Source: Clostridia bacterium
GTDB lineage: Bacteria > Bacillota > Clostridia > Peptostreptococcales > JAAYPU01
Assembly: GCA_016278615.1 (NCBI GenBank)
Contig: JADQBM010000018.1
Location: forward strand, 1 to 62,780
DNA length: 62,780 nt
Reading direction: 5' to 3'
Shown: positions 2,876 through 16,677 of the stretch, piece after piece
Layout: each line of letters begins with the position of its first letter
Position numbering within the stretch: the first letter of the stretch is position 1
The notes under the pieces: generated by a model
Seen by the model: the letters and a program-made list of their open reading frames with translations, nothing else
What the model was told of the DNA's origin: nothing
Database searches by the model: none
Translations under genes and position numbers: made by a program

Positions 2876-4436
2876 AGTCAAGTCCTAAAAAGTGTGTAAA
2901 TTTCCTCGGTATTACTTTTATCCATGTACAAAGCATAATCACTAAGCGTTTATGCCGCGAAAGGTTGTTGATAGTGAGTGCCTACATGGTAAACTGATAC
3001 GTTAAGGCATCATTCTGCCAAAGTATATATTTCTGCTAAAGCCAAAGGTGATGCCGCTGTGATGCCTCTGTATCCATGTTGGCCGAGGCTCGCTGTCAAC
3101 AACACCGTGGAATAAATGCGGCTTTAAGCAGCAGTAGTTTCTTTTGAAGCTTCTTTTAGAGTTTGATAGTAAAGGTCCATCTCGAAGTACTTGCGCTCGG
3201 TTCTCCATCTTTCATCTAATTCTATAAGAAGAGCGCCCATTAAACGAATGACAGATTGTTCATTAGGAAATATTCTTATGACTCTTTCTCGCCGACGGAT
3301 TTCCTGGTTAAGCCTTTCAACTCCGTTGGTAGTACGAAGCCGTTTACGGTATTTTAGTGGTAAAGTTAAAACTGAAGTAATATCATCAAATGCTTCATCT
3401 AAGAGACAGACTGCTTTTGGTGCTTTAGCTTCATATTTTTGTATAAGCTGGTCTCTAGCGGCTCTTGCACTTGTAACATCAACCGCTTCGTAAAGTTGAC
3501 GCAAATCTTCTTTTAAAGCTGGTTGAAGCAACTTCGGCGTATGATCCAGTATGTTTCTAGAAAAATGAGTTTGACATCTTTGCCAACTAGCGCCTTGAAA
3601 ATGTTTTTTAATAGCAGATACCAGCCCTTTATGGTTGTCAGAGCTGACTAGATGGACATCTTTTAGTCCTCTATCTATCAGAGAACCAAAGAGCTCACCC
3701 CAACTGGTCTCGGATTCGCTGTTTGCTACATGAAACCCTATGATCTCGCGATGCCCTGTTTCACTGATGCCAAGGGCAATTAAAAGGCCTTTGGATTGCA
3801 CACGGCCATTCTCACGCACCTTTAGATATATGGCATCCACCATTAAAAACGGATAATGATTTTCCAATGGTCTTGTTCTAAAGTCGTGCACCAAAGGATC
3901 TAGCTTTTGACAAAGAGCTGAAACCGTAGATTTGGAAAATTTCTTGCCACAAAGTTCTTCAGTGATGGTTTTTACTTTGCGGGTAGATACACCGTTTACT
4001 ACCATTTCCATCAGGGCGAGTACCAATGCCTGCTCGCTACGCTGATAGCGTTCAAAGAGTTCTGTACTGAATTCTCCGTTACGATGGTGTGGTACTCTAA
4101 GTGTCATAGTTCCAATACGGGTTGTTAAATCTCGTTCCCTAAAACCATTGCGATAAGCAGTTCTATCTTCTGTTCTTTCGTACGGTTTAGCACCTAGCTG
4201 CTCGCTTGATTGCATTAGTAATACTTGATTGAAAATTGCTTCAAGCAAATTGGAAAATGCTTCATCTCGGCTATCTTTTGTAAAAAGTCCGTGCAAAAGT
4301 TCTGTGTCCAGTGTAATATTTAATTGAGCCATTTGTTCATCACCTCGATTATTTATTTGTTTGGTCACTTATATTTTAACCGAGGTTTGAGCTTTTGGCT
4401 CGTATTTTCTTTTTACACCATTATATGGACTTTATC
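2876..4436 (-). mobile_element. Complete IS256-family insertion sequence
   Basis: The element is bounded by 9-bp target duplications TATGAGCAG at 2867-2875 and 4437-4445. Its ends are imperfect inverted repeats: the left starts AGTCAAGTCCTAAAAAGTG and the right, read on the minus strand, starts GATAAAGTCCATATAATGG, sharing AAGTCC and GTGTAAA. Length is 1561 bp, with one full transposase gene on the minus strand. Both ends, the intact gene and clean duplications indicate a recent and possibly active copy. Confidence 0.9.
3124..4332 (-). CDS. IS256-family (mutator-type) transposase
   Basis: The protein of about 402 residues catalyses DDE cut/copy-type transposition of the surrounding element. 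The catalytic aspartates sit in FLMVDAIYLKV and LVSSDNHKGL, and the glutamate in GVERLNQEIRRRERVIRIFP, with the family C-H signature (RCQTHFSRN) between them. The start chosen is the ATG at 4332, preceded by GAGGTGA; the frame stays open 12 codons further but without a box. The gene is full length. It interrupts the metallo-beta-lactamase-fold gene in antisense orientation. Confidence 0.95.
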   Translation of the reverse strand: MAQLNITLDTELLHGLFTKDSRDEAFSNLLEAIFNQVLLMQSSEQLGAKPYERTEDRTAYRNGFRERDLTTRIGTMTLRVPHHRNGEFSTELFERYQRSEQALVLALMEMVVNGVSTRKVKTITEELCGKKFSKSTVSALCQKLDPLVHDFRTRPLENHYPFLMVDAIYLKVRENGRVQSKGLLIALGISETGHREIIGFHVANSESETSWGELFGSLIDRGLKDVHLVSSDNHKGLVSAIKKHFQGASWQRCQTHFSRNILDHTPKLLQPALKEDLRQLYEAVDVTSARAARDQLIQKYEAKAPKAVCLLDEAFDDITSVLTLPLKYRKRLRTTNGVERLNQEIRRRERVIRIFPNEQSVIRLMGALLIELDERWRTERKYFEMDLYYQTLKEASKETTAA

Positions 4437-5012
4437 TATGAGCAGGTATGCTTTAGATAGATATTATACTAGGTTTTTAAAATTGATGAAATTTAATATT
4501 GGTTTAAATCCAGAATTGAAGAGTAGTAAAAGGATTGAATTTATTGAAGGGATAGAGAATTTAAAAAATGGTCTGTTACTATTTGATGGGGTTAATGCAA
4601 AGAAATTATATCCTAAATCTAATAGCAATTTGTTAAAGAAAGCCGATGAAAATTTTACAGAAGATGACTTTAAACATGAGATTAATTTAATAATTTCAGA
4701 AGAAGAAAGAATAATACTTATTTGTGGTTGTGCTCATAAAGGTATAATTAATATAATTGAGAAGGCTCAAAGAGTAATTAAAAGAGATATTAATGTAGTC
4801 GTTGGTGGGATGCATCTTTATAATCCAATTACAAAAAGATGTGAAAGCAATGAATTTATTGAAGCGTTAGGGGACATTTTATTAAAAAATAAAGTTGATC
4901 ATTATTACACCTGTCATTGTACAGGAGAAAAAGCTTATAAACTTCTTAATATGAAATTAAAAGGTCAAATTAATTATTTAAAAACGGGTAGTATTATTGA
5001 AATTTAGTAAGT

Positions 5013-5105: not shown

Positions 5106-6041
5106 TCAGCTAAACATCATTGCAAGGGGGTTAGAGTTTACCGCTGCTTGTAATTGAGATTCGTCGATGTGAGTATAAATCTCTGTAGTAGCTACACTTT
5201 CATGCCCTAATATTTGCTGAAGAGATCGCAAATCAACTCTTCCGTATTTATACATTAATGTAGCTGATGTATGACGAAGTTTATGTGCTGATATAGTAGA
5301 AGATTCTAATCCAGCAAGTTGTACATATTTCTTCACAACATTTTGCAGTGCTCTTGAGGTAATTCGTTTTTTGTTTCTGGAGACAAAAAGTGCCTTAGTA
5401 GGAACGTCAATAGTATTTCTTACTTGCATCCAAGTGCTAATCGAATTTTTAGCAGCTGGTGTAAGAAAAATTTTACGCTCTTTATTACCTTTTCCTACCA
5501 CAGATAAAATATCTGTATTAATTTGGTCTATGTTAAGGCTGGCAAGTTCTGATAATCTTAAGGCACAATTCAAAAATATAGTAATGATACAATGATCCCT
5601 AGGAGATGATTTACATACAAGCAGTAAACGCACAGATTCTTCTAAAGTAAGATATTTTGGGTTCCGTTTAGGAAGTTTTGGGGTTTCAAGTTCTTCAGCA
5701 ATATTATTATCTATTAAGTGTGCTTTTGTTTTGAGATACTTCCAAAACTGTCGTAAAGAAACAATTTTTCTGGCTCGAGTCCCTGCGGATGAGAGCAGGT
5801 TTATTTGGCAATGGGATATAAATGAATACATGTCATTAAGAGTAATGGATTTGATAAAGCCAATATCGGCGAATACAAAGTTTTTATTTTCAATTGATTG
5901 GTTTCTTGTCTCCATTACATACTTGAAGAATGTCAATATATCGGTTCGATATTCCAAGATTGTGTTTTCACTGCGGCCTTTAATAACTGTAAGATAACCT
6001 AGGTATTGTTCTAATAGTGTACATGTTTTATTTAACTGCAT
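5106..6041 (-). CDS. Tyrosine recombinase, XerC/XerD-like
   Basis: A 311-residue site-specific recombinase. The N-terminal SAM-like DNA-binding domain covers about residues 5-110 and the catalytic domain follows. The active-site residues are present in order: Arg in NCALRLSEL, Lys in VVGKGNKERK, HKLRH, LGHES and the Tyr nucleophile in TTEIYTH. The C-terminus NPLAMMF is typical of clostridial Xer-like proteins. It has no insertion of the kind that defines integron integrases (IntI) between the Lys and HxLRH boxes. The ATG follows AAAGGAGTG. It is oriented against the plus-strand cassette-like genes and is the obvious candidate to act on the palindromic spacers, but a phage- or transposon-type role is equally possible. 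Confidence 0.85.
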   Translation of the reverse strand: MQLNKTCTLLEQYLGYLTVIKGRSENTILEYRTDILTFFKYVMETRNQSIENKNFVFADIGFIKSITLNDMYSFISHCQINLLSSAGTRARKIVSLRQFWKYLKTKAHLIDNNIAEELETPKLPKRNPKYLTLEESVRLLLVCKSSPRDHCIITIFLNCALRLSELASLNIDQINTDILSVVGKGNKERKIFLTPAAKNSISTWMQVRNTIDVPTKALFVSRNKKRITSRALQNVVKKYVQLAGLESSTISAHKLRHTSATLMYKYGRVDLRSLQQILGHESVATTEIYTHIDESQLQAAVNSNPLAMMFS

Positions 6042-6410
6042 TTTGAATCACTCCTTTTCTTGAGTATTATGCAGATTAATATAGAAATTAACAATTAGAA
6101 TAATAATGGAATAGTAAATTGTTGGAGATGCTTATGAGAGTAAAAAGGCAGATAGGGACGTTGACTGACTTTTCATGTTATAAAAAAAGCCAAAGAGAAA
6201 AGCTCTATTAATGATTCTAACAATAAATCAGAAATGGGATGGGGAAGAGGTAATTATAACGGGTACAACGTGTAAATAGTCGCCGTCCTTATCTGGTCTA
6301 TTTATCCAAGAGATGAACCCTGGTTATGCTAACTTCTTATATAATTGATCCAGAGGTAAATCTTAATCAAAAGATTTTCCTTATCAAATTTTAAGCCAAA
6401 TATAAAGGAT
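6042..6410. other. Spacer between recombinase and next operon
   Basis: No gene was found here. It holds AGGGACGTTGACTGAC near 6153-6168, related to the GACGTTRGG cores of the recurring element, and a GGTTATGCTAAC palindrome near 6322. If the recombinase and the spacer elements form one system, this is where a primary attachment site would be expected. I see nothing decisive. Confidence 0.3.
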
Positions 6411-6457
6411 ACATTAATACATTAATAATTGACATTAATGTATTATTCATATATAGT
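6411..6457 (+). promoter_or_regulatory. SigmaA-type promoter inside a perfect palindrome
   Basis: TTGACA (6429-6434) and TATAGT (6452-6457) are 17 bp apart. A perfect 12-bp inverted repeat, TAATACATTAAT (6415-6426) and ATTAATGTATTA (6434-6445), brackets the -35 box. The octamer ACATTAAT also occurs three times directly (6411, 6419, 6432). This is the arrangement of a repressor operator. It sits 30 nt before the gene at 6488, whose product could be the autoregulator (inference). Confidence 0.6.
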
Positions 6458-6487
6458 AAACATATCCAATAGAGGGAGGTGTATATT

Positions 6488-7015
6488 ATGAAACAAATCT
6501 TTCAATTGAGACTAGTGTTAAAACATCCAAATGATAGTAAAACATCAGATAACGGTTTAATAGATCGCAAGCAAGAATTAAATGAAGCTGTGGAAGAGTT
6601 CAATCTAAAGTTTGGATATAAAAAAATAGTAGAAATATTGGAAATATCACAGAAAAGTATTCTGATGATTTTTGAAATTGAGCAGGAAGTTTCTATAAGA
6701 AATCCAGGTAAAGAGCTTTCTGCTTTAAGCAAGATTCTATACCATAAGAAGGGCTGGGGTGTTTTTTCAGCAGTTGAAGGTCGCTTATTCACTGTTGCTG
6801 ATTGCGCTGAAATAACAGAATATAAGAAAAACAACTTTCATTTGGGAGATGAGGACATCCTAAAAAGTGCTCGAAAAATATCCGATCAAGAAATGATAAA
6901 ATATTTAAATTTTATTCTTGAGGTACAGGAAAAAGGTAAGCCAGATACCATTGAAAAGCGAAAAGAAGCAATAATGAAAATCAAATATATTATTGCTGAT
7001 TGCCTTGATATGTAA
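6488..7015 (+). CDS. Hypothetical protein, first gene of the 6.5-12 kb cluster
   Basis: No family was recognised. The start ATG is 8 nt after GGGAGG; a GTG three codons earlier is less well placed. The 175-residue protein is soluble and alpha/beta-like, with a central region (about 55-115) containing hydrophobic strands and VFSAVEGRLFTVADCAEI. The C-terminus is a charged helix (residues 130-175). The palindromic promoter lies immediately upstream, and 200 nt of empty sequence separates it from the PD-(D/E)XK-like gene. It may be a regulator or an immunity-like component; nothing in the sequence decides this. Confidence 0.6.
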   Translation: MKQIFQLRLVLKHPNDSKTSDNGLIDRKQELNEAVEEFNLKFGYKKIVEILEISQKSILMIFEIEQEVSIRNPGKELSALSKILYHKKGWGVFSAVEGRLFTVADCAEITEYKKNNFHLGDEDILKSARKISDQEMIKYLNFILEVQEKGKPDTIEKRKEAIMKIKYIIADCLDM

Positions 7016-7216
7016 ATACAAGAATGAATTTGCACTTAATTATGTGTATTGTTAATAAATCATAGATACTTTAAAGAAATAATAATTGGCTTTAATTACT
7101 AATGAGGACATATTGCTATTATAGTTATTTAATTAGCACCTTGAAAATTATATTTTATTATTAAAGCCGAAAGCCCTGCTATAAATGTCCTTACATATTT
7201 AAAAGGGGGGATTATA

Positions 7217-8407
7217 ATGAGTTATTCTAAGCAAGAAACGATTAAAATGGTTATGGAAAGTATTAAAGAGCCTAAATGGATATATAAAGGTGGTTTTATA
7301 AACTACAGAGGGAAGACTTCTGACAGTAGAGAGTATTATACAGAAGTAACAGCAAAAGAATTATTGAATAATAATATCTTAGGACTTTTACAGAGTATAC
7401 ACGAAATAGTACGAGCATCAGGGTATAGAACTAATAGTCATGACGGAGTCGTTTCTACAGGAATTGCTCCAGGAAGCAGCAATAGAATTGAAGAAAGATA
7501 TGCATTAAATATGTACAATAAAAGCAAAGATGGCATTAATTTTGATGAAATCGGTACGATAATTGATTACCAAATTCCGTTGAAAAATTCAAAAGCTGAT
7601 CTTGGCTTAGGAAAAATTGACTTAATTTCAAAGACTCAGGACTATATATGGCTCCATGAGTTAAAAATAGGGAAAAATAAAGAAACATTGCTGAGGTGTG
7701 TTTTGGAAATAGCCACATACTATCAACTATTATCTAAAAGTACCTTTATTAACAGTTACTCAGAATTTAAAGGATATACTGTTGATAAAATAAAAAAAGG
7801 TATACTTATTCAAAAGGGTTCAAGCCAAGCAGAAGAGTTAGAAGAGATGAAAAGTGGTAAAAGGGAGCACCTTTACGATCTGATGAAAATATTGGATGTT
7901 GAGGCTTTTATTATCGAAGAAGCAGATCAGCATTTGACTATACATAAGGGAATTAGTGAAATTGAAAGTCTACAGAAGATGGTCAATAGACTTAAGAGCT
8001 ATTCATTTTGTACAATAGACGAATATCTAGGAATGGTTGCGGGCGGTGAGATAGTAAAAAAGGAAAATCTAGTTGATGATATACAATTTCAGTTAGAAAA
8101 CCCAAGTCACCCTTTGGCTTCAGATTTCAGATTTGGGCGGATTAAGTATGCAGATCAAATACGTGATAAAGCAAAGAAAATGAAAGAGAACATTCCTGAT
8201 GAAACACTTTTGAATATTCACGAAATTCTTTTTGACTGTTGCGCAGCTGTGAGGTTATCAATTGCACAGGCGCTGTCTTATATTGGAACAGAAGCTTCAA
8301 TACCATATTTGAAAAGACTCTTGGATGAAGAGCCTGAGTCTAAAATGGTGAGAGAAGGCACCCGAGAAGCCTTGTCAGAATGTATAACCAGAACCACCGT
8401 TCAATAA
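7217..8407 (+). CDS. PD-(D/E)XK-like nuclease with C-terminal HEAT-like repeats
   Basis: A 396-residue protein with a strong AGGGGGGA box. Residues 115-165 read as a restriction-endonuclease core: an acidic strand with D135 (GKIDLIS), then E148-x-K150 (WLHELKIGK), then a helix RCVLEIATYYQLL; E92/E93 lie on a preceding helix. Residues about 335-390 form HEAT-like helical pairs (VRLSIAQALSYIGTEASIPYLKRLLDEE is the clearest stretch, here shown only in part by motif VRLSIAQALSYIG). I do not recognise a named family. A 25-nt gap to the WG-repeat gene indicates co-transcription. A DNA-cutting role, for example in defence, is inference from the fold motif and the neighbours. Confidence 0.6.
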   Translation: MSYSKQETIKMVMESIKEPKWIYKGGFINYRGKTSDSREYYTEVTAKELLNNNILGLLQSIHEIVRASGYRTNSHDGVVSTGIAPGSSNRIEERYALNMYNKSKDGINFDEIGTIIDYQIPLKNSKADLGLGKIDLISKTQDYIWLHELKIGKNKETLLRCVLEIATYYQLLSKSTFINSYSEFKGYTVDKIKKGILIQKGSSQAEELEEMKSGKREHLYDLMKILDVEAFIIEEADQHLTIHKGISEIESLQKMVNRLKSYSFCTIDEYLGMVAGGEIVKKENLVDDIQFQLENPSHPLASDFRFGRIKYADQIRDKAKKMKENIPDETLLNIHEILFDCCAAVRLSIAQALSYIGTEASIPYLKRLLDEEPESKMVREGTREALSECITRTTVQ

Positions 8408-8432
8408 ATTTATATATCAGTGATAAAGGGGA

Positions 8433-9731
8433 ATGAAAAGTTTGAATGATAGACTAAATCATTTTAGTAAGGAAAATGTTATAGGCCAAGAGCTACATAG
8501 TAGTATTCCTTTCAGAGGTAATAGCTCTGTAAGAAAAATGCTATATGGGTATATAAATAATCAGGGGGAATATGTTATTGCACCAGTATTTGACGAAGCA
8601 GAATGCTTCATTGATGGGATAGCATGTGTAAAAGTAAATGATAAATATGGGTTTATTAGCAAAAAAGGCGAATTCCTTTTGGCTCCTCAATTTGATTGTA
8701 TCGTGGATATAACCGATGATACAGATTCTGGGAGCAGACGAATTGCCGTAAAAACTAACAATCTCTGGGGATTAATAGATCAGAAATGCAATTTTATTAA
8801 AGAACCAATAATTAATGCAATCAGTATCGGAATGTTTCGTGATGGGTTAGCATCAGTAATAACTGAGGAAGGTTACGGATTTATAAATTTAAAAGGTGAA
8901 TTAGTTATTAACCCAACACTTTACAGTATAGACTGGAGATATGAAGGGTTTTCTGAAGGATTGGCTGCGGTTTCGTTTATAGAGAGTCCCCAAACTCACT
9001 CAGGAGAAGAAACATGGGGATATATAAACAAACAAGGAATAATAGAAATTGATTATAAATTTGAAGAGGCATGTAAATTTTCAGAGGGTCTTGCTGCAGT
9101 GAGACTCAATAATAAATGGGGATACATTAATAAAAAAGGCACCTTTATTATAGACCCTATATATGACGCCGCTTCTGGCTTTATAAATGGCATGGCTGAG
9201 ACTGAGATAGAAGGCAAATGGGGATATATAGATAAAAGAGGCGACTTTGTAATTGAACCTATATTTGATAGCATAGAAGAATTTTGTGATGACGTTGCGG
9301 CTGTAAGAATTAACGGTAGATATGGGATTATTAATAGCGTGGGCAAGTTCATAATAGAACCCAGATTTGAAAATGCATTTGCTATTTCAAATGAGTTTAT
9401 ACAAGTTAGAGTAAAGGAAAAAGAAGGTATAATTAATATGGCAGGAGATTTTATAATTTTACCTGTTTATGATAATTTGTATGGTTTTTTAAATCGAGAG
9501 TTAATGGTCACAGTCTTAGGAGAAAAATATGGTGTAATATATTTACATGGCAATGTAAATATAGAGGCTTCTTTTGATTCAATACCTTTTTTTAGGGAGG
9601 GACTTGCTGTGGTAAAGATTAATGAAATGTATGGATGTATAAATTTAAATGGAGAAACAATTGTTAAACCTCAATATCATGATGCTGGATATTTTTCTGA
9701 AGGCCTATTGAGTGTCGGGATAGAGCAATAA
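8433..9731 (+). CDS. WG-repeat (KWG) protein
   Basis: About 11 copies of the WG repeat run through the whole 432 residues, each with the pattern (W/Y)GYI-x-x-x-G-x-(F/I)-x-(I/L)-x-P-x-(Y/F)D; examples are WGYINKKGTF, WGYIDKRGDF and YGCINLNGET. Such repeats form beta-propeller-like scaffolds and probably bind partners rather than catalyse. There is no signal peptide, so the protein is cytoplasmic. The ATG at 8433 is only 1-2 nt from the AAAGGGG box; the in-frame TTG at 8442 has a normal spacing of about 10 nt and may be the true start. It is encoded between two nuclease-like proteins. Confidence 0.85.
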   Translation: MKSLNDRLNHFSKENVIGQELHSSIPFRGNSSVRKMLYGYINNQGEYVIAPVFDEAECFIDGIACVKVNDKYGFISKKGEFLLAPQFDCIVDITDDTDSGSRRIAVKTNNLWGLIDQKCNFIKEPIINAISIGMFRDGLASVITEEGYGFINLKGELVINPTLYSIDWRYEGFSEGLAAVSFIESPQTHSGEETWGYINKQGIIEIDYKFEEACKFSEGLAAVRLNNKWGYINKKGTFIIDPIYDAASGFINGMAETEIEGKWGYIDKRGDFVIEPIFDSIEEFCDDVAAVRINGRYGIINSVGKFIIEPRFENAFAISNEFIQVRVKEKEGIINMAGDFIILPVYDNLYGFLNRELMVTVLGEKYGVIYLHGNVNIEASFDSIPFFREGLAVVKINEMYGCINLNGETIVKPQYHDAGYFSEGLLSVGIEQ

Positions 9732-9848
9732 TATAAAATAATTACAATAGAGGAATTTAGAATGAAAGCAATTATTTATCATCCATTAAATGAGTAATAA
9801 TAGCGATTGTTTAGATGTCTTTTTTTAAAATAAAGAAGGGGAATTATT

Positions 9849-10766
9849 ATGAGAGGATTAAATGAAACATTTATTAAAGATTTACAAAATGGTGAGTTAG
9901 CAATATTTTTAGATAAGGTAAAAAAAGATGATACTTTATGTCTTGAAATAAGAGAAAATTATATCAATATTTATTATCGTGGCGGAAGCATGTTCCGTAT
10001 AGAGCAATATAAAGAAAAATACAAGATTTTATTTGATCTAAACTATTGCACAAATAGAACACATTCAAAATATTTATCAAATATTTCTAAGATAGAAACT
10101 CATGCCGAGTGGGCTGAATCTATTCCACTGTTAAAAGCTGAAATGGATTCATATTTTTTTGAACATCCAAAACATGAAAGAGAATACCAGCAACTCGTAT
10201 TAAGAGCCAATAATAATAATATAATTGCTAAAGATACTGACTATTACTTCGTAGATATGGAGTATGCAAATAGCCTAAATAGGAGCAGATTTGATTTAGT
10301 TGCTATTAAATGGCTTTCAGAGTCTATTACGAGAAGAAATGCGGATAATATTAACCTTGCTTTTATTGAAATGAAGTATGGAGATGGAGCTTTATCGGGT
10401 GAAGCAGGAATTCAGAAACATATTCAAGATCTCAATAAATTTATGAGTGATTCAAGCAATATTGATGCTATTCAAGAAGAAATGGAAACAGTATTTAACC
10501 AAAAAATTAGACTTGGCCTAATTCCTAGTGTATCTAAAGAAATTAAAATAAATAAAAATACAAAATCAGAATTCATATTATTAATTGCTAATCACAAGCC
10601 TGCCAAGTCAGTTTTGAAAAGGGAAATATCTTTAGCTATGAATACTATTGAATATAAAGAATTGGTGAAAAAATGCGACTTAAAGATTGCCACAGCATCT
10701 TTCATGGGGTATGGCTTATATAATAACTGTATGAGAAATATAGAGGACTTTTTGGATGAGCTATAA
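9849..10766 (+). CDS. PD-(D/E)XK-like nuclease
   Basis: A 305-residue protein with RBS AAGGGGA. The core is visible at residues 131-200: D149 in a strand (RFDLVAIKW), then E174-x-K176 (AFIEMKYGDG), then a helix with a conserved-looking Q189-K-H-x-x-D-L. An acidic helix (HEREYQQLVLRANN, about 108-121) precedes it. This matches a type II restriction-like fold but not a family I can name. The stop overlaps the start of the next gene by 11 nt, so the two are translationally coupled and probably function together. Confidence 0.6.
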   Translation: MRGLNETFIKDLQNGELAIFLDKVKKDDTLCLEIRENYINIYYRGGSMFRIEQYKEKYKILFDLNYCTNRTHSKYLSNISKIETHAEWAESIPLLKAEMDSYFFEHPKHEREYQQLVLRANNNNIIAKDTDYYFVDMEYANSLNRSRFDLVAIKWLSESITRRNADNINLAFIEMKYGDGALSGEAGIQKHIQDLNKFMSDSSNIDAIQEEMETVFNQKIRLGLIPSVSKEIKINKNTKSEFILLIANHKPAKSVLKREISLAMNTIEYKELVKKCDLKIATASFMGYGLYNNCMRNIEDFLDEL

Positions 10767-11949
10767 AATACATAGGGGGCAAGACCAAATCGGCGGAAAT
10801 ATAATTGAAATCGCATCAGGTACAACCAAAATACTTGTAGATATTGGAACGGAACTTGATGAGGGCGAAGTGATCAACCTTCCAAACATTGATGGTTTGT
10901 TTAACTATAAAGGGTTTGATGCTGTGTTCATTTCTCATTATCATTCAGACCATATGGGGCTTGCTTATCAAATATATAAAGGCATCCCATTATATATTGG
11001 TGAAAATAGCTATAAAATAGTAAAAGCTTCTGATAGATATAAGCGGCAGCAGACTATTAGACCCACTGGATTTCTAAGAAATAATAAACCCATTCAAATT
11101 GGTGATATAAAAGTAACACCCTATCTGACGGACCATTCAGCATTTGATTCATATATGTTTTTGATTAAGGCTGAAGATGAGACGATTTTGTATACAGGAG
11201 ATTTTCGTTCTAATGGGAGAAAATCATTTGATAGACTACTTAAAGAACTGCCTAATAAAGTAGATATTTTAATTTGTGAAGGAACTACTCTTTCAAGATT
11301 AAACTATGTTAGTGAGACAGAAAGTCAACTAGAAGAATATGCAACAGAAATATTCAGAAAGAAGACAGGTCCTATATTTATTTTGCAATCTTCTATGAAT
11401 ATAGACCGAATCGTTACAATGTATAGAGCATCTAAAAGGAGTGGACGTTTATTTTTACAAGACTTATACATGGCTGAAATAACAACTTCAGTAAGTGGTA
11501 GGATACCAAATCCAATAGGGTTTGGTGATGTAAAAGTATTTATTACTAGACCATATGCTAAGGAACATTTCAGATATAGATTATTTAGCAGGTATGGAAG
11601 AAATAAAATCAGTAAAAAACAGATAAGTAAGTCGTTGTTTGCAATGTGTATAAGAAGCTCTATGGGAAATTATTTAAAAGCTTTAAATAAGGAAATGTCA
11701 TTTGAAAATGGTGTGTTAATTTATTCATTTTGGAGTGGATATAAAGAGCAATTACAAATGAAAGAGTTTCTAAAACTATATCAGGATTTGGGGCTTGAAG
11801 TTATGACATTACACACAAGTGGACATGCCGATTCAGACGCAACTAAAAGGTTGATAAACCATGTAAGGCCTGAAAAAATTGAACCTATACACACAGAAAA
11901 TTCAAGTTGGTTTGATACGTATAAACTACTAAACCAAGAGGGTGATTAA
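10756..11949 (+). CDS. Metallo-beta-lactamase-fold hydrolase, beta-CASP/RNase J-like
   Basis: A 397-residue zinc hydrolase. The metal motif is H61-x-H63-x-D65-H66 (FISHYHSDHMG), followed by DHSAFDSY, TGDFRSNGRK and, at the end, TSGHAD and PIHTENSSWF. The last two resemble the closing motifs of RNA- or DNA-processing beta-CASP enzymes. The insert between TGDFRS and TSGHA is about 200 residues. The enzyme is likely cytoplasmic and acts on nucleic acid. It starts inside the end of the PD-(D/E)XK gene, so the pair is a two-gene nuclease module at the end of the 6.5-12 kb cluster. Confidence 0.75.
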   Translation: MSYKIHRGQDQIGGNIIEIASGTTKILVDIGTELDEGEVINLPNIDGLFNYKGFDAVFISHYHSDHMGLAYQIYKGIPLYIGENSYKIVKASDRYKRQQTIRPTGFLRNNKPIQIGDIKVTPYLTDHSAFDSYMFLIKAEDETILYTGDFRSNGRKSFDRLLKELPNKVDILICEGTTLSRLNYVSETESQLEEYATEIFRKKTGPIFILQSSMNIDRIVTMYRASKRSGRLFLQDLYMAEITTSVSGRIPNPIGFGDVKVFITRPYAKEHFRYRLFSRYGRNKISKKQISKSLFAMCIRSSMGNYLKALNKEMSFENGVLIYSFWSGYKEQLQMKEFLKLYQDLGLEVMTLHTSGHADSDATKRLINHVRPEKIEPIHTENSSWFDTYKLLNQEGD

Positions 11950-13581: not shown

Positions 13582-14592
13582 ATGGTCGTATTGAATATGC
13601 AGAAAAAAATCTCTCCTATTTGTATATCAAAGAAACTTAAACTGTATATTTCAAATCTTCCTAACGGCAAAGACAACAATTGGAACGAGAAACTTTGTTC
13701 TGAAACGTGGGCAAATCTACGCTATTTGGAAATACATGCTCAAAAATTAGGCATTGAGCAGAAAAATGAATTGTACAAGATATATAAAAAATACTTTTCA
13801 CAAGAATCTTTACCAGATGGCGCTACTGAAAATATATGTATTCAAAGCATTGTTGATCGTATGATCTGCTTATATTTTGACTATGACTATGCAGATATGC
13901 CGATGGGGGACTGGACAACAAACTGTTTTGACGGCAGACTTTGTGAAGAAGATTATACCGAAAAAACAGTAGATTTCATAAACTTCCTGGCACACGATGA
14001 AAACAAGCTACTACCATCGCCAACGCCGCAATGGATTTACTCGTCAAATCATGACGAAATAAATCTTTACCGCATGTTCTTGGGAGGAGAAGAAGCTACT
14101 CCATATATCGAAAGCATGAAAAAGTGGGGCGAGTTGATCGATAATTTTTTATGTAACAAGAATGACTATTTTATGCTAGATTATCTTATGAATTCAATCC
14201 ATAAAGACAATGAATACAATGAGTACCATTTTTTAAAGATGTTTTCATTGTGCCAATTATTTTTAGAGAAGGAGCGCATGTCTGAGCTTGATTCAAAACT
14301 TCCGAGATTTATTGATGCAAGGTATTCTCAAAAGGAAAAGGAGGACTGTGCAAAACTTCTCCGTAGAATGAGAAACAAGATAGCCCATGGCGATTTTCTG
14401 TCCTTCGAAGTAATAATTGAGGAATTTGCTACAACACTAATGGACGGACGATTTTGGTTTGATTATTCTGAACATAGTCGGAAAAACTGGACCATCCAGC
14501 ACGTTTGCTGTTTAATGGATGATATTGTAAGGAACCTAATTCAAATGTTGTTGTTGGATAAAAAACAGTTAGATTCCATTAGAAAGCTATGA
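13582..14592 (+). CDS. HEPN-like domain protein
   Basis: A 336-residue soluble protein with a GGAGA box. Residues 215-330 are helical and contain LLRRMRNKIAHGDF, with R264-N265 and H269 forming the Rx4H motif of HEPN ribonucleases and HEPN-type structural domains; flanking helices fit the fold. Residues 1-200 match nothing I recognise. HEPN proteins cut RNA or mediate dimerisation in toxin and antiphage systems. The next gene, 137 nt downstream, encodes a CHAT protease, so a defence role is a reasonable inference. The base composition (more G+C than its neighbours to the left) suggests a separate origin. Confidence 0.6.
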   Translation: MVVLNMQKKISPICISKKLKLYISNLPNGKDNNWNEKLCSETWANLRYLEIHAQKLGIEQKNELYKIYKKYFSQESLPDGATENICIQSIVDRMICLYFDYDYADMPMGDWTTNCFDGRLCEEDYTEKTVDFINFLAHDENKLLPSPTPQWIYSSNHDEINLYRMFLGGEEATPYIESMKKWGELIDNFLCNKNDYFMLDYLMNSIHKDNEYNEYHFLKMFSLCQLFLEKERMSELDSKLPRFIDARYSQKEKEDCAKLLRRMRNKIAHGDFLSFEVIIEEFATTLMDGRFWFDYSEHSRKNWTIQHVCCLMDDIVRNLIQMLLLDKKQLDSIRKL

Positions 14593-14673
14593 CATGCCCT
14601 TTTGAAGCTGTTTTGGTGCAGAGTGGGCACAAGAATTTTTACGGACTTGATTATATTTATATCGGACAAGCGG

Positions 14674-14692
14674 GTTAGCAATAATGGGAAGC
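14674..14692 (+). repeat. Half copy of the palindromic spacer element
   Basis: GTTAGCAATAATGGGAAGC, preceded by CGGACAAG (14663-14670). It is the reverse complement of the GCTTCCCATTAT arm seen in other copies and matches the right half of the element at 13348. Confidence 0.45.
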
Positions 14693-14729
14693 CTGTTCGA
14701 AAACATAATGAGGAAATGAGGAGAAAGTA

Positions 14730-15785
14730 ATGGCACTTGTTGACACATATAGAAATAATGTCGCACGAAAACGTAGTGAGCTTGCAAAACTCTCCAGTGA
14801 TAGAGCCAAAGAAAGTGCTAAAAAGGCACAGCAGAAACAAAAGATTGTGACAGCGTCTAATTCTATAAAGCACACTTCATCACAACCTACCATTTGTTCA
14901 AAAATATCCGAAATTGATAGAGCGGAAAAAGCAGTTGCCGCTATTTATAAAAAGATAGCTGATTTGGATAAAAAGATAGCTCAAAAAGATAAAGAAATAG
15001 CCGATGAGAAGAAGAAAGTGCAAGGTGAAGAAAAGAAAATTCGCAAGAAACATGAGCAAGATGATAAGAAAAAGCAACAAGAGAGTGAAAAAACGCTCCA
15101 GAAGATTAATCAAGCCATTATTATGCAACAAAGACAACAGGCGACCATGCAAAAAGATATAGAGCAGTTAAAGTGTGTTCCAGAAAAAATTACCGTGTTA
15201 TTCTTTGCGACAAATCCCACAGACACCTCTAAGTTGCGCTTAGACGAAGAAGCTAGGTCAATACAGGAAATGATTCGAAAATCTGAACATAGAGACTCGA
15301 TTTCTTTTGAGACCAGATGGGCTGTTCGTCCATTGGATATTCTCCAAGCAATTAATGAAATAAATCCAGATGTTATTCATTTTAGTGGTCATGGTACTGA
15401 AATGGGAGACCTTGTATTAGAAAACACAGACGGTTCAGCAAAACTTGTCACTAAAGAAGCCATCACTCAAACAATTATGGCGTCTTCGGACAAGATTCAC
15501 CTACTGTTCTTTAATGCATGCTTTTCATATGAGCAGGCCCAAGAAGTAGTTAGCCACGTGGATGCAGCTATCGGGATGACCGATTCAATAGGTGATGCGG
15601 CCGCTTGCTCTTTTGCAGCGCAGTTTTACTCTTCATTAGGGTTTGGGCTTTCTGTAAAAAAAGCCTTCGAGCAGGCAAAGGGATCCATGATGCTTGAGTC
15701 TCCAACTGAGTCTAACACGCCAAGACTTTATACAAACGACAACATAGATGCAGATGCGTTATACATTGTACGTCCTATCATTTAA
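14730..15785 (+). CDS. Coiled-coil / CHAT-domain caspase-like protease
   Basis: A 351-residue two-part protein. Residues 1-148 are a long lysine/glutamate-rich coiled coil (DTYRNNVARKRSELAKLS at the N-terminus) of a type that is also found fused to TIR and other effectors. Residues 152-351 are a CHAT domain with the catalytic dyad H221 (IHFSGHGTE) and C264 (FFNACFS), preceded by FFATNPTDTSKLRLDEEARSI. The family cleaves protein partners on activation; in bacteria it often serves in abortive-infection-type defence. Start ATG after GAGGAGA. The HEPN-like gene lies upstream and a metallopeptidase gene downstream. No partner protease sensor is obvious. Confidence 0.85.
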   Translation: MALVDTYRNNVARKRSELAKLSSDRAKESAKKAQQKQKIVTASNSIKHTSSQPTICSKISEIDRAEKAVAAIYKKIADLDKKIAQKDKEIADEKKKVQGEEKKIRKKHEQDDKKKQQESEKTLQKINQAIIMQQRQQATMQKDIEQLKCVPEKITVLFFATNPTDTSKLRLDEEARSIQEMIRKSEHRDSISFETRWAVRPLDILQAINEINPDVIHFSGHGTEMGDLVLENTDGSAKLVTKEAITQTIMASSDKIHLLFFNACFSYEQAQEVVSHVDAAIGMTDSIGDAAACSFAAQFYSSLGFGLSVKKAFEQAKGSMMLESPTESNTPRLYTNDNIDADALYIVRPII

Positions 15786-15803
15786 ACCAACAACAAGTAA
15801 AAA

Positions 15804-15877
15804 GATTCCCATTATGTTAAACATGTTAAGTGTCTATAACACGAAGTTCGGACAAGTCGGTATATTAGTAATTAGGC
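15804..15877 (+). repeat. Palindromic spacer element, diverged copy
   Basis: GATTCCCATTATGTTAAAC, then TATAACACGAAGTTCGGAC, AAG, and ATTAGGC (15871-15877). It has the same order of motifs (CCCATTAT, TATAAC, GGACAAG, TTAGGC) as the copies at 151-236 and 13348-13410. Confidence 0.4.
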
Positions 15878-15912
15878 TCAATTGGAGTGAAGTGTGAGAG
15901 GGGTGTTTAACA

Positions 15913-16677
15913 ATGGATAAAGAATCAATATTGCTAAATAAATATGTTAATCAGTCAGTAAAAAGATATATTGATTTTATGAATATAGAAAAATTGCCAC
16001 AGTTTATAATTACAAAAAAGAAGATATCACTTACGAAGGCAAACAAGAAGGGATTCGGTTCATTTGCAACGCATCATTATGATATACCAACAGGGGGACA
16101 CTCTTTAGAAGTATGGTCAGATATGTACCAACAACAGTTACATGCTGAGTATCTGTTGTTCCATGAATTTACACATATTCTTGATACCGAAATGTATGTA
16201 CAGAAAGATAAAAAGAAGAATGTGATGTATAAAGGATTTTCAGAATATCACGCAGGTCAAATAGATTTTCTGAAGGTGATAGGAGTCAAAAAAGCAGATG
16301 CGAGTTTTAGCTTTTCTATGAAGCAGATGTTTGAAACTGTAGGAGGTCCAAAAACCGCCGAAGAATTTGTGCTTGTAGCACACGACACATCAGCAAACTT
16401 AATCAACAGGAGTGATTTCCAAGCTGATGTGGAAACATTAGCTATTACGTTTGGATTAATTTTTAATTATTGGGGACGACGTTCAATCTGTAAGATGTAT
16501 GCCGTTGACTATGTTGAAAAAGTGGATAACAAAGCTATTGAAAAGTGCATAGGAAAGGAATCTTTTAAAACTTTAGATGCATTAATGAACGGTTGGCTGA
16601 CTGAAGACCAGATTAAACTAATAGGTGAAATCTACTTTAAAATAATAGTATCAAAAATGAAGAAATATTCTTTATAA
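15913..16677 (+). CDS. HExxH metallopeptidase-like protein
   Basis: A 254-residue protein with the zinc motif H84-E-F-T-H88 (LLFHEFTHILD) on a helix. A possible third ligand is E111 in FSEYHAGQ. The preceding strand (HSLEVWSDMY) and an earlier SFATHHY fit the edge strand of a zincin. There is no signal peptide or membrane segment, so it is cytoplasmic. I cannot assign a named family; ImmA/IrrE-type and SprT-type are both less than convincing. GAGGGG precedes the ATG. It follows the CHAT gene and is separated from it by a spacer element. Confidence 0.6.
   Translation: MDKESILLNKYVNQSVKRYIDFMNIEKLPQFIITKKKISLTKANKKGFGSFATHHYDIPTGGHSLEVWSDMYQQQLHAEYLLFHEFTHILDTEMYVQKDKKKNVMYKGFSEYHAGQIDFLKVIGVKKADASFSFSMKQMFETVGGPKTAEEFVLVAHDTSANLINRSDFQADVETLAITFGLIFNYWGRRSICKMYAVDYVEKVDNKAIEKCIGKESFKTLDALMNGWLTEDQIKLIGEIYFKIIVSKMKKYSL

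Follow-up and report, generated by a model that had tools for sequence, protein, structure and literature searches.

A five-gene cluster in a Clostridia bacterium contig (JADQBM010000018.1, assembly GCA_016278615.1; the whole 62,780-nt stretch that was analyzed is called the window below) contains a conserved unit that is smaller and more widespread than the cluster itself, namely, one PD-(D/E)XK nuclease gene together with one beta-CASP gene. In the window these are genes 4 and 5, and their pairing is well supported across bacterial phyla. The safest conclusion is joint action of gene 5 with a PD-(D/E)XK protein. We further propose a regulated two-nuclease module directed against invaders (a conflict module) that is made up of genes 4 and 5 and has in gene 2 a second nuclease of the gene 4 kind; we hold this reading to have an even chance of being correct. 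The genes of the cluster are as follows:

6488 to 7015, plus strand: gene 1, 175 aa; a possible local regulator by position only, probably outside the conserved module
7217 to 8407, plus strand: gene 2, 396 aa; predicted PD-(D/E)XK nuclease domain (about residues 1 to 244) followed by C-terminal HEAT-like repeats
8433 to 9731, plus strand: gene 3, 432 aa; eleven WG repeats
9849 to 10766, plus strand: gene 4, 305 aa; predicted PD-(D/E)XK nuclease that has a conserved N-terminal domain of its own
10756 to 11949, plus strand: gene 5, 397 aa; predicted nuclease with complete metallo-beta-lactamase (MBL) and beta-CASP parts and an RMMBL motif

Two predicted nucleases and their pairing across phyla

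Gene 5 carries the metal site HxHxDH (H61, H63, D65, and H66) together with H127 and D149, and all three beta-CASP motifs (A, B, and C) are present, with E175, H357, and H379 among the key residues; each of these positions is invariant or 97% conserved. By its family motifs, gene 5 is a beta-CASP nuclease, presumably an active one. In beta-CASP enzymes, a histidine in motif C is the mark of RNA enzymes and a valine that of DNA enzymes, and by this rule the motif-C histidine of gene 5 suggests that it probably acts on RNA. A preliminary description of this DNA had called the protein a zinc hydrolase of RNase J type. The beta-CASP assignment with a full metal site stood, but the scores fell far under the RNase J cut-offs (77.1 bits versus 400 for TIGR00649 and 60.7 versus 820 for NF047419). 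Relatives of gene 5 were found at E < 1e-55 in 13 of 341 genomes of the class, and 9 of 398 genomes of the phylum have the family, the window's own included; in the class search the relatives were followed by two intermediate outgroup copies without a nuclease partner (about 1e-42) and then by RNase J and others from about 1e-33. Judged by these sequence scores, the gene 5 family is distinct from RNase J.

Gene 4 belongs to no family in Pfam, NCBIfam, PADLOC, or PHROGs and has no sequence match in the PDB. It nevertheless displays the motif E110...D149...E174-x-K176, conserved in 59 aligned sequences at 97%, 100%, 97%, and 98%, respectively, and these residues sit on the expected helix and strand elements of a structure predicted with high confidence (predicted local distance difference test, pLDDT, 94). 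When this model was compared with solved structures using VIA-align, PD-(D/E)XK enzymes, including McrC and NucC, made up 23 of the 35 best aligned chains, with Z-scores of 7.5 for HamA, 7.2 for NucS, 6.8 for XisH, and 6.4 for FokI. The highest of these values, like the maximum of 7.4 for the nuclease domain of gene 2, lies within the range of unrelated folds, and Foldseek returned no match for the gene 4 model at E 0.001, so that the fold call rests on VIA-align and motifs. We accepted it despite the weak Z-scores because the motif is conserved and the matched structures form a consistent list, and gene 4 is thus a PD-(D/E)XK nuclease by motif and predicted fold, which would be expected to be catalytic.

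The N-terminal domain of gene 2 shows the pattern GKIDL...HELK, common to its relatives. The structure of the whole protein was predicted at pLDDT 73, chiefly confident within the nuclease domain; residues 62-246 align with solved structures that include NucS/EndoMS, XisH, Can2/Card1, and PaqCI (Z 5.5-7.4). Motif and predicted fold both place a PD-(D/E)XK core in this protein. The C-terminal HEAT-like stretch (E 2.5e-5) is slightly short of the Pfam cut-off. The preliminary reading of genes 2 and 4 as two PD-(D/E)XK-like proteins, the first with HEAT and followed by a WG-repeat protein, was therefore borne out by conserved motifs, predicted folds, and the eleven repeats of gene 3.

Scanning about 85,000 species genomes for the gene 4 family yielded 64 loci, to which one viral contig was added for a total of 65. 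In 29 of the 65 loci, gene 4 had a gene 5 relative on its own strand at a distance of less than 200 bp, with gene 4 first in 15 and gene 5 first in 14. Nine more loci had it farther away but within 3 kb on the same strand and three on the opposite strand, giving 41 of 65 within 3 kb; at a further 10 loci the contig ends before a flank of 1.5 kb. In relatives, the nuclease gene and gene 5 are separated by short intergenic gaps or overlap by 4 nt. The pairs span at least 13 phyla. One pair comes from a metagenome bin labeled archaeal, perhaps wrongly, as the gene 5 of this bin clusters tightly with a copy from Chloroflexi. The five-gene unit proposed at the outset was thus partly upheld: the nuclease and beta-CASP genes do co-occur elsewhere, but the five genes are not conserved together, and gene 1 was present at none of the other loci examined.

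Gene 5 stays constant while its partner changes

As a guard against the bias of starting from gene 4, sampling was also anchored on gene 5. With the window excluded, 16 Bacillota genomes could be evaluated, and in 15 of them gene 5 had a PD-(D/E)XK-like gene on its own strand, either adjacent or one gene removed; L194 and L195 are near-copies among them, L231 also has a broken gene 5, and the sole exception (G188) has a broken gene 5 as well. The motif pattern used for flagging partners also matches about 11% of unrelated open reading frames (ORFs) of 200-400 aa, and partners were therefore accepted by family relationship or sequence reading; those of L080, L082, and L085 were called by motif reading only. 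The partner was a gene 4 relative in L225 and a remote one in L190 and L199, a member of the gene 2 family in L194, L195, L198, L226, L227, L228, and L230, and a member of a third family (D) in L190, L193, L200, L229, and L231; that of L192 is weakly PDDEXK_4-like (Pfam E 0.001). Remote partners at first set apart as a "C-type" family were dropped as a separate group when hhalign joined them to gene 4. The recurrence of the gene 2 family beside gene 5 in several genomes makes gene 2, like gene 4, a recurrent partner type. Its relatives elsewhere consist of the nuclease domain alone, with neither HEAT tail nor WG partner. The window carries both partner types, and on the gene 5 tree its copy is the sister of that from L194, which is paired with a gene 2 relative (support 100/100).

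Ordinary nucleases could also have come together by chance on a mobile island, and the two gaps of more than 100 nt within the cluster, as well as the recombinase and the transposase close to it, fit such an explanation. Recurrence of the pair in at least 13 phyla and in both orders, and the PD-(D/E)XK-like neighbor in 15 of the 16 gene-5-anchored genomes, leave it hardly any probability; we reject it for the pairs gene 4/gene 5 and gene 2/gene 5, but not for genes 1 and 3.

Closely related gene 5 proteins were found with different partners. Those of L192, L193, and L198 are 79-83% identical, yet their partners come from three families, and the same partner difference separates L226 and L228 from L229 at about 60% gene 5 identity. 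In L061 and L190, gene 5 is 94% identical and the nuclease partners have no pairwise BLAST match. On the gene 5 tree, the label "gene-4 partner" requires 13 changes, at least 9 of which are forced by well-supported branches, with a few (two rows) falling inside the wider gene 4 superfamily, as the tree was labeled before the hhalign joining. Closely similar gene 5 proteins with differing partners, together with these changes on the tree, indicate that partner type and gene order change while gene 5 stays constant.

A constant protein beside changing nucleases would also be expected of a toxin and its control, in which the variable PD-(D/E)XK protein would poison the host, and either the beta-CASP protein or the WG/HEAT protein would restrain it or remove its product. 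The short gaps and 4-nt overlaps are compatible with such a pair, as is the fact that gene 5 is broken in some loci (L196, L197, and L231). However, intact copies of gene 5 keep a complete catalytic site, many genomes have gene 4 but no gene 5, and both gene orders are equally common, which makes this explanation improbable.

Further small genes were seen near the pair. The gene for a small membrane protein with a conserved GAVKDIAGT stretch (6371-7048) separates the gene-2-type nuclease gene of L194 from gene 5, and L007 encodes a similar protein close to gene 4 (5994-6731). Small proteins of one family (about 125-160 aa, GIFW/HY pattern) are repeatedly encoded next to the gene 5 relative or in its vicinity and may be a third component in other phyla:

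GIFW/HY small-protein copies: L236, 4558-4953; L237, 4504-4980; L241, 6256-6630; L242, 4543-4986; L014, 10246-10728; L039, 6991-7374

The five-gene locus, its promoter, and its neighborhood

As the preliminary description had it, the window has five ORFs between 6488 and 11949, all on the plus strand, with one overlapping pair (genes 4 and 5, by 11 nt) and another spaced by 25 nt (genes 2 and 3). Longer gaps separate genes 1 and 2 (201 nt) and genes 3 and 4 (117 nt). No terminator-like site was found in the five-gene region, so a single transcript for genes 1 to 5 is possible. Two further features lie upstream:

6415 to 6457, plus strand: inverted repeat and sigma-A-type promoter; probable operator plus promoter
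5106 to 6041, minus strand: tyrosine recombinase (phage-integrase family) directly upstream; mobility context, outside the module

The promoter ahead of gene 1, TTGACA-17-TATAGT (6429-6457, with the -35 box at 6429-6434 and the -10 box at 6452-6457), matches at 11 of 12 positions and is the top-scoring site of the region. The palindrome said to wrap it proved to be an inverted repeat with perfect 12-bp arms (6415-6426 and 6434-6445) and a 7-nt spacer that lies over most of the -35 box. When the 446-bp intergenic stretch was shuffled 1000 times with its dinucleotide composition kept, 0.2% of the shuffles produced such a repeat and 3% an 11/12 promoter, and the promoter-wrapping repeat thus exceeds chance. 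The site is single-copy in the genome except for one site with three mismatches, as expected of a local operator, and is probably one, although this role is putative.

These features could be taken to mean that genes 1 to 5 are one dedicated five-component system, regulated by gene 1 and dependent on the WG and HEAT parts as scaffolds. Close spacing, a strong promoter with an operator-like repeat before gene 1, and the lack of a detected terminator in the region speak for it, and so do WG proteins adjoining the module in L023 and L231 and the resemblance of the gene 2 HEAT tail to the terminal part of a regulator-like protein encoded close to gene 4 in L038. On the other hand, gene 1 (ATG at 6488, with an in-frame GTG at 6479) matches no curated family in Pfam, NCBIfam, PADLOC, or PHROGs and has just two weak relatives in the 341 class genomes. 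The relative examined, in L233, adjoins a ParA-like gene and no nuclease of such kind. Gene 1 accordingly has no recurring link to the module and is probably outside its conserved core. As the gene 2 relatives elsewhere also lack HEAT tail and WG partner, we regard a dedicated five-component system as having little probability. WG proteins adjoin the module in two or three other loci, clearly in L023 and L231 only, and WG repeats were for this reason rejected as a fixed part of it; the WG and HEAT parts may instead be binding surfaces peculiar to the window locus and a few others. The L038 protein (5555-7108), two genes upstream of the gene-4/gene-5 pair, combines in one chain a cRec-like part, a helix-turn-helix (HTH), a HAD phosphatase-like part, and a C-terminus 35% identical over 151 aa to the HEAT end of gene 2.

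Elsewhere in the window, a Mutator-type transposase gene near the cluster (3124-4368, minus strand) overlaps the start of a plus-strand ORF (4324-5007) whose end resembles another MBL-type protein and which the insertion has perhaps interrupted. Three unassigned genes occupy 13582-16677; the second of them (14730-15785) encodes a CHAT protease domain (E 2.4e-7), and the group could belong to another conflict locus. Nucleotide composition gave no island signal, and no tRNA gene was found in the window.

In the module loci, regulators of two kinds concentrate around the core genes. WYL-type regulators accounted for 20 of 407 ORFs (4.9%) within 2.5 kb of the core genes versus 4 of 367 (1.1%) farther out, and cRec-like HTH matches for 11 of 407 versus 0 of 367; one or the other was present within 2.5 kb in 23 of 88 loci. 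Both profiles were made for this analysis; their HTH parts overlap and some of the proteins used in them are shared, so that the gradient counts for more than the numbers.

Copies were also sought on mobile elements. The Butyrivibrio proteoclasticus plasmid pCY186 has, in order, a WYL regulator, a gene-2-type nuclease, and an MBL protein, and five proteobacterial plasmids carry an MBL gene near or next to a remote gene 4 relative (hhalign 97%); a search of plasmids with gene 4 itself gave no match, the plasmid copies being remote relatives. Module copies were found on viral contigs, with no gene 2 relative in viral contigs and no gene 5 relative in annotated phages. On the viral contig L081, a lone gene 5 relative (5917-7239) lies beside apparent tail genes of the opposite strand, and no nuclease partner was found there. 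Among defense genes, QatC (L056) and a PD-Lambda-1 protein (L015, beside gene 4 only) neighbor gene 4 relatives, and a location of the module in defense islands is a lead. The suggestion of a defense module on a mobile island is therefore plausible as regards setting, given the recombinase, the plasmid and viral-contig copies, and the defense-system neighbors; the function itself would be defense only by extension from that setting.

Near neighbors of the module family also include ADP-ribosylglycohydrolases (3), microbial PARG (2), calcineurin-like phosphatases (3), and HAD phosphatases and cRec-HTH proteins recognized by sequence. This composition agrees with the main competing explanation, repair or clean-up, in which the beta-CASP enzyme would trim damaged RNA and the PD-(D/E)XK protein would handle DNA or RNA ends within toolkits that include phosphatases and ADP-ribose hydrolases. 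Two studies tie the cRec domain to RNA ligases and ADP-ribose processing (PMC7824862, PMC9503650). Nonetheless, no RNA ligase family is among the most frequent neighbor families, the extra repair-type genes are limited to a minority of the loci, and a partner nuclease that is exchanged repeatedly is more typical of conflict systems. We thus consider repair unlikely, if the strongest of the competing explanations.

Proposed role and comparison with known systems

In the anti-invader module that we propose, gene 5 would be the constant part, degrading nucleic acid, probably RNA, and the PD-(D/E)XK partner the exchangeable part, which probably sets the invader nucleic acid that is engaged or cut, possibly in physical contact with gene 5. 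A repressor bound at the promoter-operator (in the window, the inverted repeat at 6415-6445) would hold the module off, a role that a WYL or cRec regulator may fill in many relatives, and infection or a nucleotide signal would switch it on. Once active, the module could degrade the nucleic acid of the invader, or that of the host in an abortive response, presumably to the benefit of the host. In addition to the weak structural matches given above, several observations weigh against this proposal. PADLOC holds no model for the module. Gene 5 is absent near gene 4 in 14 of the 65 loci with flanks of at least 1.5 kb, and 12 of 13 checked genomes with such neighborless loci have no gene 5 altogether (G432 has one elsewhere), so that gene 4 can exist alone. 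Many loci come from metagenome bins, and the counts of defense-gene neighbors stand without a random-locus control.

A broader claim, which we put forward more tentatively and rate somewhat short of even, is that the pair represents an undescribed and widespread type of defense system in bacteria and perhaps archaea, made of a constant RNA-acting beta-CASP nuclease and an exchangeable, target-setting PD-(D/E)XK subunit, often under nucleotide-sensing WYL or cRec regulators. If true, an uncatalogued two-gene system would be present in a few percent of the sampled Bacillota genomes and in many other phyla, and the swapping of partners around a fixed beta-CASP enzyme would provide a natural experiment on how a defense changes target. 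It would also add another immune setting for beta-CASP nucleases, which are mainly known from RNA processing, DNA repair, and type VII CRISPR.

Searches for a known counterpart returned little. With PADLOC 2.0.0, genes 1, 2, and 4 had no match, gene 3 matched only a 35-residue stretch of PDC-M03A, and gene 5 reached E 0.12. No description of a beta-CASP and restriction endonuclease (REase) pair was found in the open-access literature that was searched. ARG-centered neighborhoods with cRec and WYL proteins, linked to NAD and ADP-ribose, share WYL, cRec, ADP-ribosylglycohydrolase, PARG, phosphatase, and REase genes with some relatives of the module, whereas the window cluster has the REase-type genes only and most module loci lack the rest; the accessible portions of the two studies make no mention of a beta-CASP and REase pair (PMC9503650, PMC7824862).

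The cluster is neither RNase J, Hachiman, a HamM-protease pair, nor type VII CRISPR. RNase J and other beta-CASP nucleases (also EF2904, PDB 2az4) likewise have the MBL site, the beta-CASP motifs, and RMMBL, but RNase J is about 550 aa long versus 397 aa for gene 5, which is moreover paired with PD-(D/E)XK genes. Cas14 of type VII CRISPR is an MBL-beta-CASP effector that also acts in defense; its profile matches gene 5 weakly (29.6 bits versus a cut-off of 800), and no Cas protein was identified among the cluster genes. Hachiman consists of the PD-(D/E)XK effector HamA and the helicase HamB. HamA heads the structure list of gene 4 with a Z-score that lies in the range of the shared superfamily fold, but the two have no sequence-family match, and no helicase family is present among the cluster proteins. 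HamM, an MBL nuclease add-on of Hachiman, is ComEC-like and encoded with a trypsin-like protease (PMC12799240), whereas gene 5 is of beta-CASP type and genes 1 to 5 include no protease family. Even so, HamM-Hachiman is the nearest parallel in kind, as there too an MBL nuclease and a PD-(D/E)XK protein meet (PMC12799240).

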